Assembly: GCA_022508745.1 (NCBI GenBank)
Contig: JAFLUP010000005.1
Coordinates: forward strand, 1 to 50,483
DNA length: 50,483 nucleotides
Source: Oscillospiraceae bacterium
GTDB lineage: Bacteria > Bacillota > Clostridia > Oscillospirales > CAG-382
Reading direction: 5' to 3'
In this document: piece after piece, positions 13,156-15,557 of the stretch
Layout of the letters: every line of letters starts with the position of its first letter
Position numbering within the stretch: the first letter of the stretch is position 1
Notes under the pieces: generated by a model
What the model was told of the DNA's origin: nothing
Databases searched by the model: none
Seen by the model: only the letters and a program-made list of their open reading frames with translations
Made by a program: the position numbers and the translations under genes

Positions 13156-13770
13156 ATGAAACATCACATCTACGGGTATATTCGCGTTTCCAGCACAGAC
13201 CAGAACGAAGATCGGCAGCTTCTTGCGCTGCTGGGGCAGAATATCCCCCCAAAAAACATTTTCACGGACAAGCAATCGGGAAAAGATTTTGACCGCCCGC
13301 AATATAAAAAACTATTGAAAAAGCTGCGAAGCGGGGATCTGCTCTACATTCACAGCATCGACCGTCTGGGGCGCAACTATGAGGAGATCCAAAACCAGTG
13401 GCGCATCCTGACCAAGGAGATCGGGATCGACATCTGCGTCCTCGATATGCCCTTGCTGGACACCCGAAACGGCAAAGACCTGATGGGGACGTTTATCGCC
13501 GACCTTGTGCTGCAAATTCTCTCCTTTGTGGCGCAAAACGAGCGGGAAAACATCCGAAAACGCCAAGCGGAGGGGATCGCCGCCGCAAAAGCCAAAGGCG
13601 TCCGCTTCGGGCGACCTGAAAAGGAGCCGCCGGCAGATTTTCCCGAAATTGTCCGGCAATGGGAAGAAAAACAGCTCCCCTTGCAGGAAGCCTTGAAGCA
13701 ATGCGGCATCAGTGAAGCCAGCTTTTACCGCCGCGTGCGGGAATATCGGCGGGCAAGAAACAAAGATTGA
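13156..13770 (+). CDS. Small serine recombinase (resolvase/invertase, Hin/Gin size)
   Basis: A 204-residue site-specific recombinase. The catalytic domain begins [16 protein letters not shown] with the nucleophile Ser12 after Arg10, and has the second arginine motif IDRLGRN (Arg70 and Arg73). The E-helix region ([28 protein letters not shown]) and GVRFGRP linker follow, then a DNA-binding helix-turn-helix near 174-195 ([19 protein letters not shown]). Size and order match DNA invertases and resolvases, not large serine integrases. The start at 13156 has AAAGGA 9 bases upstream; an ATG at 13135 lacks a ribosome site. No promoter of its own was found after the terminator. Two matching 26-bp palindromes lie 10 and 136 bases downstream, the expected substrates. 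Confidence 0.92.
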
Positions 13771-13780
13771 CCTCAAAAAA

Positions 13781-13806
13781 CTGTCAAAAGGTGTACTTTT
13801 TGACAG
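13781..13806. repeat. Left recombination site (26-bp imperfect palindrome)
   Basis: Twelve-base arms beginning CTGTCAAAA and ending TTTTGACAG pair except for one position, around the asymmetric central dinucleotide GT (13793-13794). A 26-bp length with a 2-bp asymmetric centre is the format of Hin/Gin crossover sites, where the recombinase cuts with a 2-base stagger. Confidence 0.8.
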
Positions 13807-13919
13807 CTTTAATATTTTTGCATATTATAACACAGTTTTATCTAAAAAGCAAGATGGTTTGACGATTTTTTAATAGCGGGACGAAAAATGCAGCGCTTTA
13901 TTGCCGGTATCAAAAAGTA
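13794..13919. other. Predicted invertible promoter segment
   Basis: The roughly 126 bp between the centres of the two inverted palindromes. The central dinucleotides (GT left, AC right on the plus strand) are complementary, which by the logic of serine invertases makes exchange invert this segment. It holds one clear promoter, at present on the minus strand and so directed toward the recombinase gene. In the flipped state the promoter would read into the two lipoprotein genes. The segment is AT-rich and codes for nothing substantial. Confidence 0.72.
13824..13852 (-). promoter_or_regulatory. Promoter inside the invertible segment, facing left
   Basis: Minus-strand -35 TTGCTT (13847-13852), spacer of exactly 17 bases, -10 TATAAT (13824-13829) preceded by TGT, an extended -10. 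In this orientation it would make a transcript antisense to the recombinase gene. After inversion the -10 would be 54 bases from the lipoprotein ATG. Confidence 0.8.
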
Positions 13920-13932
13920 CACTTTTTAATAA
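13907..13932. repeat. Right recombination site (26-bp imperfect palindrome)
   Basis: Arms TATCAAAAAGT and ACTTTTTAATA flank the central dinucleotide AC (13919-13920). Its reverse complement matches the left site over GTGTACTTTTTGA and most flanking bases, so the sites are inverted copies. The half-site TATCAAAAA equals the half-site I recall for Salmonella hix sites. Confidence 0.8.
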
Positions 13933-13943
13933 TGGAGAAAGCC

Positions 13944-14555
13944 ATGAAGGGAATAATTTTTATTCGATCACTATTGTTCTTAACATGCATTTCACTCATA
14001 CTCGCTTTATGTGCCTGTCAAACAAGCGACGCAGGCCATACGCACAGTTATATTACAATCGAGGCCGTGAATCCGACATGTTTATCCTCCGGCCGTAGAA
14101 CCTATCAATGTGCAGATTGCGAATATTTTTTTAAAGAGACAATCCCTGCCCGTGGGCATAACCCTGATTCTACCGGTAAATGTACGGAATGCGGGCACCA
14201 GCTTGTCAAGCTATCCGACAAATTGCCGATCACCATTTCTTACACGTGGGGAACAAATCCTGACAACATTTATACAAGGGTCAACATTACTGCCGTTTCG
14301 TTTTCTTCCAAACCTTACGGTTCAACTTTGATCGTTACCCTTAACGGTAAAAAAACATACGATTACAAAGGGGACGTCGGCACAACCGCAGCAAGAGTAT
14401 TAGTGGTCATTAAAGATTCTAAAGGGAGCGTTGTCGGTTCGAAAGAACTATATGATATGCACTTAGTTGTGGGTCAAGCATTCCAGAAAAGCGCGGAATT
14501 TAATGTGTCCCCTGATGAAACTTATACGATTGAGTTGAGGGACCACAGCGTTTGA
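13944..14555 (+). CDS. Putative phase-variable lipoprotein with Cys-rich module
   Basis: A 203-residue lipoprotein. Residues 1-25 are a hydrophobic signal ending in ILALCAC; the lipidated Cys is probably the second one. A module at about 32-90 has spaced Cys and His pairs (PTCLSSGRRTYQCADC, then GHNPDSTGKCTECGH), a pattern seen in many secreted Clostridia proteins and probably binding metal or forming disulfides. The C-terminal 110 residues look like a beta-sandwich without recognised family. GGAG 6 bases before the ATG at 13944 sets the start; a longer start at 13932 lies in the recombination site. It is clearly AT-richer than the flanking genes. No promoter faces it in this assembly. Confidence 0.75.
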   Translation: MKGIIFIRSLLFLTCISLILALCACQTSDAGHTHSYITIEAVNPTCLSSGRRTYQCADCEYFFKETIPARGHNPDSTGKCTECGHQLVKLSDKLPITISYTWGTNPDNIYTRVNITAVSFSSKPYGSTLIVTLNGKKTYDYKGDVGTTAARVLVVIKDSKGSVVGSKELYDMHLVVGQAFQKSAEFNVSPDETYTIELRDHSV

Positions 14556-14608
14556 TTGATTCACATAGAAAAATAATCAATTCCTATACAACACAGGAGG
14601 AACCCTTC

Positions 14609-15118
14609 GTGAAAAAATTTTTGATTCGCTCCGCCTTACTGGTCATCTGCATAATTCTTGCCATCTCTCTATGCGCCTGCGGCGGACAAAGTGACGGCGC
14701 ACAAAGTCATGATGCGCAAAGTCATCCTACACCCAACGCAGGTGAACTTGGTAACAACTTGACGCTTAGCGTATTGCGGGACATGACACTTGAAGAGGCA
14801 GAAACCTTTTTTGGAACACCGGACGTAAAAGACGATGTTCCAGGTGTAGGCACGCAGTTGGTCTACTACGATCGTTTTACATTTTATGGAAGCGAGCTAA
14901 AAACTCTTATCTATACCTCTACTAATCATTCAATCAAGGTTAATTTTTCCGATGCTGACAGCTATTGGTTGGCGAAAAATCAAATAAGAGTATTTGGCAA
15001 CTATGAGCGCACTCAATCAGAAGTTGTCTATGGAGATTGCGATTACTATAGCTATGGTACAATCATAATTCAAGACAAAGGAAGCGCCAGCTTCGGTATT
15101 GAATTTTATTTCTCTTAA
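14609..15118 (+). CDS. Second putative lipoprotein of the invertible-promoter operon
   Basis: A 169-residue lipoprotein starting at a GTG with a perfect AGGAGG 8 bases upstream. The signal MKKFLIRSALLVICIILAI ends in a lipobox SLCACGG, the same LCAC form as its neighbour. A linker with the repeated QSHDAQSH and GAQSH follows. The mature domain contains TLEEAETFFGTPDV, a segment similar in style to the BamE/SmpA fold (helix then sheet), but no family is recognised with confidence. It is 53 bases after the first lipoprotein and equally AT-rich, so both would be switched together. Confidence 0.72.
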   Translation: MKKFLIRSALLVICIILAISLCACGGQSDGAQSHDAQSHPTPNAGELGNNLTLSVLRDMTLEEAETFFGTPDVKDDVPGVGTQLVYYDRFTFYGSELKTLIYTSTNHSIKVNFSDADSYWLAKNQIRVFGNYERTQSEVVYGDCDYYSYGTIIIQDKGSASFGIEFYFS

Positions 15119-15179
15119 TTCCCTGCATTTCATATGTCTTTTCATCTATTTACTTCTATATTTCCAAAGGAAAATGCAA

Positions 15180-15557
15180 ATGATAGAGAATAATGCACAA
15201 ACGATCCGAAAAATTTCCGCTAAGCTTCCACCTGTCAATATTGAATTCGCCAAGGCATACATACAAGGCGCGATCCACAGCCATTGCAACACGCAAGCAG
15301 ACAAAGAATTCTCCGTGCGCATTCTGTTCGGCGGAGAGAATCGGGACTGGGGTGACACGCCGCTGCAATGTATTTATGACTACCACCGGTATGTAAAAGG
15401 CGCCAAAGATCCCGCCGAGTCCGCGGCAAAAGACGTTGGCTGGTTATTTAAACAGGTACTGAGCGAGGATAACAGAACATTCGAATATGTCGGCAAAGAT
15501 ACAGGAAGCATTTACAGGTTGAAAGAACCGTGCGAGGGTTGGTCGACAGTCCGTTAA
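15180..15557 (+). CDS. Hypothetical protein of the recombinase island
   Basis: A 125-residue protein I do not recognise. The ATG at 15180 has AAAGGA 8 bases upstream; a longer frame adds a hydrophobic N-terminus from 15099 but without a ribosome binding site. The protein is soluble, with mixed helix and strand; its only notable segment is FGGENRDWGDTPLQCIYDYHRYV. It has no Cys pairs, signal or P-loop. Composition is between the AT-rich lipoproteins and the host genes. It follows the second lipoprotein by 61 bases and ends 5 bases before a terminator stem, so it is probably the last gene of the switchable transcript. Confidence 0.6.
   Translation: MIENNAQTIRKISAKLPPVNIEFAKAYIQGAIHSHCNTQADKEFSVRILFGGENRDWGDTPLQCIYDYHRYVKGAKDPAESAAKDVGWLFKQVLSEDNRTFEYVGKDTGSIYRLKEPCEGWSTVR

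Follow-up and report, generated by a model that had tools for sequence, protein, structure and literature searches.

Does the recombinase gene at position 13156 of the window (by which we mean the whole stretch of 50,483 nucleotides analysed) belong to a switch governing the lipoprotein genes that follow it? A preliminary description had read the DNA between them as an invertible promoter, and comparison with related loci supports that reading at the level of sequence. We consider it very probable that the locus is a self-contained phase-variation cassette in which the recombinase inverts a 126-bp promoter segment and thereby switches the lipoprotein genes; inversion of the promoter most likely decides whether these two genes for surface lipoproteins are expressed. 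The flipping itself is something we infer, as no genome was found in both orientations. Invertible promoters are already a known kind of switch and the cassette would belong among them. Its parts are:

13156..13770, + strand: small serine recombinase (204 aa), the proposed inversion enzyme; Pfam Resolvase match and aligned motifs
13781..13806, no strand: site 1, a recombination palindrome with core 13784-13803 and GT at its centre; a terminator hairpin is predicted here too; sequence, repeats, conservation and covariation
13794..13919, no strand: segment proposed to invert, 126 bp from one crossover point to the other; site geometry and helical phase shared with relatives
13800..13828, + strand: forward promoter-like match TTGACA-17-TATTAT (11/12), using the right arm of site 1; consensus scan
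13824..13852, − strand: promoter in the segment, facing the recombinase (OFF), −35 TTGCTT (13852-13847), 17 bp, TATAAT (13829-13824); sequence, interior scan and relatives
13908..13931, no strand: site 2, inverted copy of site 1, core 13910-13929, centre AC; sequence and repeats
13934..13937, + strand: ribosome binding site GGAG ahead of ATG 13944; sequence
13944..14555, + strand: cargo gene 1, whose product is a predicted lipoprotein containing a Cys-rich module; by eye, a signal sequence and an LCAC lipobox
14609..15118, + strand: cargo gene 2, whose product is also a predicted lipoprotein; start codon GTG, preceded by AGGAGG; sequence
15174..15557, + strand: cargo gene 3, protein without a recognised family; sequence
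15562..15600, + strand: terminator-like hairpin with 14-bp arms that ends the unit; inverted repeat, T run read from the sequence

The recombinase matches Resolvase in Pfam (PF00239, the N-terminal catalytic domain, 99.6 bits) and is 35% identical to Mu Gin, with catalytic motifs common to both: the serine of its RVS motif aligns with the Gin serine and the DRLGR motif is present too. At the C-terminus the helix-turn-helix scores 17.2 bits with HTH_23, under the cut-off of 24.6. The solved chain closest to it is 2r0q, Tn552 bin3, and the bit scores are 110.8 for Tn552 bin3/Sin versus 69.1 for Gin. As the sequence is thus nearer Sin/Tn552 bin3 than Gin, the original label of a Hin-type enzyme holds for size and for the form of the sites, not for membership. 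According to the available text of PMC3798978, a lysine at Hin residue 47, in the basic helix B, occurs in 15/15 invertases aligned there; aligned with Gin, the present recombinase reads KKLLKK where Gin has KRALKR, and the first lysine is missing in two of four aligned relatives (L003 and L061).

The two palindromes are, as first described, inverted copies of each other with GT and AC centres, the second running from 13908 to 13931 rather than from 13907 to 13932, and they lie in an inverted repeat whose 29-nt arms are 79% complementary. Asymmetric 2-bp centres within inverted palindromic sites are the arrangement of the Hin/Gin invertases. With 0 and 1 mismatches these sites are the sole such pair in the 2.16-Mb assembly (93% complete), across which a search for other site pairs found none. 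A lone extra site with three mismatches was put down to chance, because the reversed-pattern control gives six matches per strand at that level in the same assembly.

Related loci were collected as a main set of 96 non-identical recombinase loci, window included, from which whole-genome loci matched on the minus strand (L084-L086, L090-L094 and L096 among them) were left out, and the motif search for site pairs left the two-base centres free. A pair lies just downstream of the recombinase stop in 60 of the 96 (again counting the window) and the centres are complementary in every one of the 60, the best of 10,000 permutations reaching 42. Centre types are GT/AC (41), AC/GT (12), AA/TT (2), AG/CT (2), AT/AT (2, the one type that is not asymmetric) and CT/AG (1), and centre type has changed at least 19 times on a weakly resolved tree of 66 recombinases. 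Among 38 further loci (the non-identical minus-strand ones, a set that was not blind as some had already been met in a looser search) six have a pair, complementary at the centre in all six, and 32 have none. When the site-pair pattern was searched alone, all five places found adjoin a recombinase of the family, with none from the reversed-pattern control in two genome searches. The preliminary description had named a lack of such sites next to homologous recombinases as grounds for rejecting its reading, and neither count (60/96 loci, 5/5 places) gives those grounds. The motif search found no pair in 36 of the 96 loci, some of them cut by contig ends; 26 of these are among the 85 loci of at least 65% identity, and five of the 26 have diverged-core pairs in a generic inverted-palindrome search, which favours complementary centres; one of the rows from that search, L074, is a run of N, and the counts given here do not draw on it. 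In viral contigs a pair stands beside two of 80 recombinase relatives, one of them a copy of L010. Phages and plasmids were also looked at for strain pairs: the best phage match is 64% identical, and plasmid matches are 52-57% identical among the 15 listed, with one more record at 60-80%. The relatives' site pairs and complementary centres support site-specific inversion. Dozens of other genomes show this arrangement next to related enzymes, ahead of many different genes.

Between the sites, the preliminary description saw one strong promoter facing away from the lipoprotein genes. Its boxes, spacing and direction stand, a TG precedes the −10, and the score of 19.1 in the segment alone compares with a shuffled maximum of 14.4 ± 0.9; against the claim, the consensus scan omits this reverse promoter, whose −35 agrees with consensus at three of six bases, and lists the forward match at 13800-13828. 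That scan, over 12900-15800, gave no excess over shuffles for promoters (4 versus 4.0 expected) or terminators (4 versus 3.7). The forward match may be a by-product, its −10 overlapping the reverse −10 read on the opposite strand. Inverting the sequence confirmed that the −10 would end 54 bases before ATG 13944, with a ribosome site in between as had been claimed (GGAG at 13934-13937). Flanked by inverted repeats, the reverse promoter aims at the gene in just one of the two states, with the reservation that the forward match is present in the OFF drawing.

Measured from the nearest site, the −10 box sits at a distance of 16-21 bp in 54 of 66 loci, as against 6% in shuffled interiors; the distance rule fails in the other 12 and in three of the six further pairs. 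Directions in the 54 classed loci are very unequal, 49 facing the recombinase (OFF) and five the cargo (ON), and where the module is reversed it keeps this distance, now from the other site. Promoter scans that took in the sites gave many unclear calls because the site arms resemble −35 boxes, and were replaced by interior-only scans, in which one direction is ahead by at least 1.5 in 57 of 59 loci (51 OFF, 6 ON, 2 unclear). Four loci (L021, L023, L040 and L078) that are unclear by the hand labels of the hairpin comparison are OFF under the fixed distance rule. The ON locus L061 has Cys in place of the first Arg of DRLGR and may therefore be stuck. The flipped state expected in related genomes was thus found as two promoter orientations across loci (49 and 5), not within a single species: comparison of the site-pair loci with each other for opposite orientations in the same species found none, and L010 and L116, which are identical, share one orientation, as do L196 and L197 at 92%.

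Inversion might be real and yet leave the lipoprotein genes transcribed whichever way the segment lies, with the forward match as promoter in the drawn state, so that level or start site changes rather than ON/OFF. The 11/12 agreement of that match and, in scans that take in the sites, comparable forward matches in several relatives speak for this, but we think it unlikely given the strong directional preference of the interior-only scans and the overlap of the two −10 boxes, and a forward transcript would also have to cross site 2. The forward match does mean that the OFF state may leak.

The two sites are mostly 105-190 bp apart and their spacing follows the DNA helix (10.5 bp phase, R 0.71, n = 64), also after thinning at 80% identity (R 0.69, n = 48; 0/2000 in the jitter control). 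In site 1, arm positions 1-7, outside the core, covary within the site across loci (at most 1 in 1000 shuffles each) and position 8 does not. The consensus scan lists site 1 as a terminator, and its hairpin has T-rich tails (6 of 10 bases on the left side, 7 of 10 on the right); the RNA hairpin of site 2 at the locus is equalled by 23 of 200 shuffles. The outer arms of site 1 covary like an RNA hairpin, which suggests that this site also acts as a terminator of the OFF-state transcript, to be weakened by inversion. Any link between hairpin and orientation in the five ON loci depends on the measure, the hairpins being more stable as found in 0/5 by one and 2/5 by another. The helical spacing and the covarying arms of site 1 are additions to the first reading.

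The same hairpin could be taken to mean that no inversion occurs and that the recombinase unit regulates itself through its palindromes, which would act as fixed terminators or operators. The listing of site 1 (in a scan where terminators were not in excess), the RNA-like covariation of its arms and the single orientation common to 49 of 54 classed loci all fit, but we regard this as very unlikely because centres that are complementary in 60/60 pairs while changing type some 19 times or more are a need of recombination, and because some loci have the promoter module turned round, at equal distance from the other site. That the recombinase instead resolves or excises a mobile unit, the inverted pair being incidental, is highly improbable. 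In its favour, the closest relatives of known structure are Tn552 bin3/Sin and the gamma-delta resolvases, three congeners lack the unit at the corresponding place and the G+C of the cargo is below that of its surroundings. Against it, the second site precedes the cargo rather than following it, the promoter holds a fixed place between the sites, and inverted sites with complementary centres give inversion as the outcome.

For the invertible cassette we propose that the serine recombinase would bind each palindromic site, join the two across a short, helically phased loop, cut at the two-base centre (GT/AC) and rejoin the 126-bp segment the other way round. As drawn, the promoter aims at the recombinase and its short transcript should stop at the site 1 hairpin, which would leave the lipoprotein genes OFF. 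Reversal would place the transcription start about 47 bases ahead of ATG 13944 and let this promoter drive both lipoprotein genes and the third gene.

Like the Salmonella hin switch and the G segment of phage Mu, the cassette has a small serine recombinase and two inverted sites, but its segment is 126 bp long and carries a promoter alone, and its enzyme is nearer Tn552 bin3/Sin. Mpi-type invertible promoters of Bacteroides are also turned by a serine recombinase and have surface genes downstream; the present enzyme, however, reaches 44.7 bits with the Mpi model (NCBIfam NF009949, cut-off 272) and has a single local site pair, not many distant sites. In the cwpV switch of Clostridioides difficile, as set out in the available text of PMC2784873, formation of an intrinsic terminator in the OFF transcript changes with inversion; the inverted region does not contain the promoter there, and the tyrosine recombinase RecV acts. 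The proposed alteration of an OFF-transcript terminator is alike, whereas here the promoter is inside the segment and one recombination site would itself be the terminator. Gut bacteria also carry invertons, in which inverted repeats flank regulatory DNA; they occur in Clostridia too, with a median of three per genome, in the accessible part of PMC11892184; the Clostridia group there is tied to tyrosine recombinases (the main text does not contain the word 'serine'), in contrast to the serine recombinase here. Five site strings searched in literature text gave no match, and a literature search for closer systems found nothing nearer than Hin/Gin, Mpi, cwpV and gut invertons.

We hold it an even question whether the loci make up a widespread, mostly clostridial family of autonomous ON/OFF cassettes. 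In such a family one of the sites would double as the OFF terminator, a single inversion would turn the promoter and weaken the terminator together, the phased loop may need no separate enhancer, and cassettes would repeatedly have been placed before unrelated genes, many of them cell-surface. If so, Clostridia would gain a compact serine-recombinase switch for which the sequence by itself reveals sites, centres, spacing and the place of the promoter, and phase-variable genes would be predictable in many uncultured species. It would also raise a mechanical question, namely how a serine invertase joins sites so close together and whether helical phase replaces an enhancer.

As for the genes putatively controlled, cargo gene 1 has a weak zinc-ribbon match under the Pfam cut-off, cargo gene 2 had no match in Pfam, and cargo gene 3 (queried from 15177) had none in Pfam, NCBIfam or PHROGs. 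The hairpin at 15562-15600 is absent from the terminators listed by the consensus scan. Cargo differs between loci, with surface or envelope domains in 11 of the 40 scanned.

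The preliminary description placed a recombinase-encoded invertible promoter in front of two lipoprotein genes, and its layout of the region is borne out by the sequence, the repeats and their centres (the two middle bases of the 20-bp site core):

13156-13770, recombinase gene, with two palindromic sites after it
13781-13806, site 1, palindrome with centre GT
between the sites, reverse strand, promoter TTGCTT-17-TATAAT
13908-13931, site 2, palindrome and inverted copy of site 1, with centre AC

As that description also stated, inversion would make the −10 box end 54 bases upstream of the ATG at 13944. 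The finding holds, and its main reading, promoter inversion driven by the recombinase, is in our judgement very probably correct, the flipping being deduced from sequence; it draws its support from the conserved site pairs, complementary centres and fixed promoter place in relatives. Of more interest than the single switch is the family-level design, with centres that change in compensation, spacing in step with the helix, a promoter at a fixed place, a probable terminator carried by a site and apparently exchangeable cargo (the genes beyond site 2).

In a scan of the segment between the sites the reverse promoter scored 19.1, the maximum for shuffles being 14.4 ± 0.9. It is absent from the list of a stricter consensus scan (its −35 matches at 3/6), which between 12900 and 15800 gave promoters and terminators at chance level (4 vs 4.0 and 4 vs 3.7) and listed in its place a forward promoter-like match at 13800-13828. 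Similar forward matches occur in several relatives and have their source in a −10 region about 17 bp from TTGA[CT]A in the site arm, as set by the fixed promoter distance. Searching the window's own assembly (2.16 Mb, 93% complete) recovered both sites, with 0 and 1 mismatches, and one lone 3-mismatch match, fewer than the 6 on each strand that the reversed pattern gave as a control.

The recombinase matches Pfam Resolvase (99.6 bits), with a helix-turn-helix match under the Pfam cut-off, and the PHROG ‘DNA invertase’ family (180.8 bits); at 44.7 bits it falls short of the 272-bit cut-off of the Mpi model. Among solved chains Tn552 bin3 (2r0q) comes nearest, with 110.8 bits as against 76.1 for gamma-delta resolvase and 69.1 for Gin; the enzyme aligns at 35% with phage Mu Gin, sharing the catalytic motifs. 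A fragment of a second recombinase of this family (the first 20-odd codons, about 80% identical) lies on contig 13 of genome G000 at 16280-16348 (1281-1349 of locus L263) and then gives way to different sequence; the 4 kb examined there contained no site.

Loci in relatives were taken from the best 80 of 579 contigs encoding a recombinase relative and from 99 related genomes (44 with a match, the window's own counted), and searched with a 20-bp site motif with free centre and up to four mismatches, whose frequency in shuffled loci is 0.017 per kb. Close to the recombinase stop, 60 of 96 non-identical loci, the window included, had two matches separated by 80-400 bp, and 59 of these 60 fall among the 85 loci with at least 65% recombinase identity. 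Minus-strand loci from whole genomes were placed not in this set but in a later one of 38, together with those from a second genome search (27/245 genomes matching at 1e-60); these loci, mostly below 65% identity, gave six site pairs. Among viral contigs a pair lies beside 2/80 recombinase relatives, one of them a copy of locus L010. Searching for an exact site pair irrespective of recombinase found two viral contigs, 2/394 genomes of the order and 2/391 of the class (one genome in both). These counts are not prevalences, since a search in exact form passes over the pair in the window itself. With the pattern reversed as a control, both genome searches gave 0. All five places found adjoin the same recombinase family. 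Four loci (L045, L077, L087 and L091) have diverged site cores with CGTAAA or CAAAAA arms and keep a complementary centre and similar spacing; they possibly form a series for DNA-recognition specificity.

Strand exchange by serine recombinases requires paired change of the two-base centres. Though free in the motif, the centres are complementary in 60/60 loci (permutation maximum 42 in 10,000 runs; 2 of the 60 are AT/AT, also its own complement) and in 6/6 pairs of the later set. The tree of 66 recombinases is weak, with good support for 19 of its 63 inner branches and 32 drawn as open; on it 19 changes of centre type are needed, without clustering (shuffled mean 20.0), and well-supported branches force 8 changes for GT. 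The close relatives L031 and L029 have AC/GT and GT/AC, respectively. Spacings cluster at 125-127, 134-139, 145-148, 155-160 and 165-169 bp, and a period of 10.5 bp gives Rayleigh R values of 0.71 for the 64 spacings below 200 bp (two longer omitted), 0.69 after thinning at 80% identity (n=48) and 0.71 at 75% (n=36). Jittered spacings equalled this phasing in 0/2000 trials. The best period is 10.3-10.5, or 10.7 for the 13 loci remaining at 70% identity, within a broad peak (R within 0.02 over about 10.0 to 10.9). Spacing class has changed 29 or more times across the tree; the later-set spacings are 105, 135, 136, 136, 166 and 178. In the literature, the papers nearest to this question of phasing concerned Hin.

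Promoters were sought in the interiors only, sites left out, a score margin of 1.5 counting as clear direction. In 54/66 loci (L116, a copy of L010, left out) the best promoter has clear direction, with 16-21 bp between its −10 box and the nearest core, a position reached by 6% of shuffled interiors on the position criterion alone; the rule fits 3/6 later-set pairs. A T five bases ahead of the −10, not part of the score, occurs in 41/54. The promoter faces the recombinase (OFF) in 49 loci, including the window, and the cargo (ON) in five (L088, L043, L068, L044 and L061), with 12 unplaced; orientation changes at least five times on the tree. In L045, from a looser search, the better promoter faces the cargo at 18 bp (17.4 vs 16.3, under the margin). 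Because the L061 recombinase has Cys at the first Arg of DRLGR, a motif intact in the other four ON loci, this switch may be locked ON.

The arms immediately flanking the core of site 1 pair with each other despite varying in sequence among loci. In the 49 OFF loci their covariation at positions 1-6 was reached by 0/1000 shuffles and at position 7 by 1/1000, with no excess at position 8 (632/1000). That of site 2 is weaker (0, 3 and 15 of 1000 at positions 1, 3 and 6; at least 55 elsewhere), and outer-outer and inner-inner covariation is mostly absent (lowest 29 and 7 of 1000). Were the segment inverted, pairing within site 1 would exceed shuffles at position 1 (0 of 1000) and, marginally, at position 4 (33 of 1000), and nowhere else. 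On the plus strand the two hairpins taken together are stabler as found than inverted in 38/43 loci labelled OFF, 0/5 ON and 9/12 unclear; with strands averaged and the fixed classes the figures are 44/49, 2/5 and 9/12 (OFF vs ON, Fisher p 0.019). OFF loci average 6.0 T among the ten bases left of site 1, and ON loci 6.6. Read leftward, site 1 of the window gives an RNA fold of −13.5 kcal/mol (equalled by 2/200 shuffles) that leads into UUUUUU; the site 2 hairpin does not exceed shuffles (23/200 as good). Site 1 is probably an OFF-state terminator that inversion would weaken, for which the cwpV switch, where inversion alters an intrinsic terminator of the OFF transcript, is a precedent (PMC2784873).

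The first open frames beyond site 2 vary widely, with the caveat that they were chosen mechanically (longest frame starting within 400 bases) and some may be wrongly assigned. A crude signal or membrane pattern is present in 27/64 cargo proteins. Pfam, run on 40 of 54 listed proteins, gave by our grouping surface or envelope domains in 11 (Cna_B, pilin-tip VWA, S-layer homology, collagen repeats, fibronectin III, MBOAT and glycosyltransferase, with BspA-type leucine-rich repeats in four), AMP-binding enzymes in four and no match in 11, the remainder being mixed. Four switches 90-94% identical in DNA (L070, L073, L076 and L081) precede different genes, which encode AMP-binding enzymes in three cases and a predicted membrane protein in the fourth; this suggests cargo exchange among them. 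The window's cargo comprises two predicted lipoproteins, the first with weak relatives (best beyond its own genome 29%, E 5e-10), and a third protein of unknown family with no relative in 41 family genomes besides its own.

Five site strings had no match in the literature searched, a weak absence as most subscription papers lie outside it. One survey gives a median of three invertons per genome for Clostridia-like Firmicutes and ties one Clostridia group to tyrosine recombinases (PMC11892184).

The cassette itself looks acquired, to judge from its absence in three congeners and a drop in G+C from about 0.6 to 0.36-0.48 (intervals starting at 13600-15200). In these three of 23 other genus genomes (G001, G023 and G014; the other 20 are uninformative at this place) the same neighbours, an SGNH/dockerin-like gene, a pseudouridine synthase and a sugar isomerase-like gene, occur without recombinase or lipoproteins, and the gap, about 1 kb long in G023, there contains two small frames resembling, by eye, AbrB- and XRE-type regulators. 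Elsewhere in the window, 11437-12369 and 20284-23430 encode two secreted-looking proteins, SGNH-like and phosphodiesterase-like, both ending, by eye, in dockerin-like repeats.
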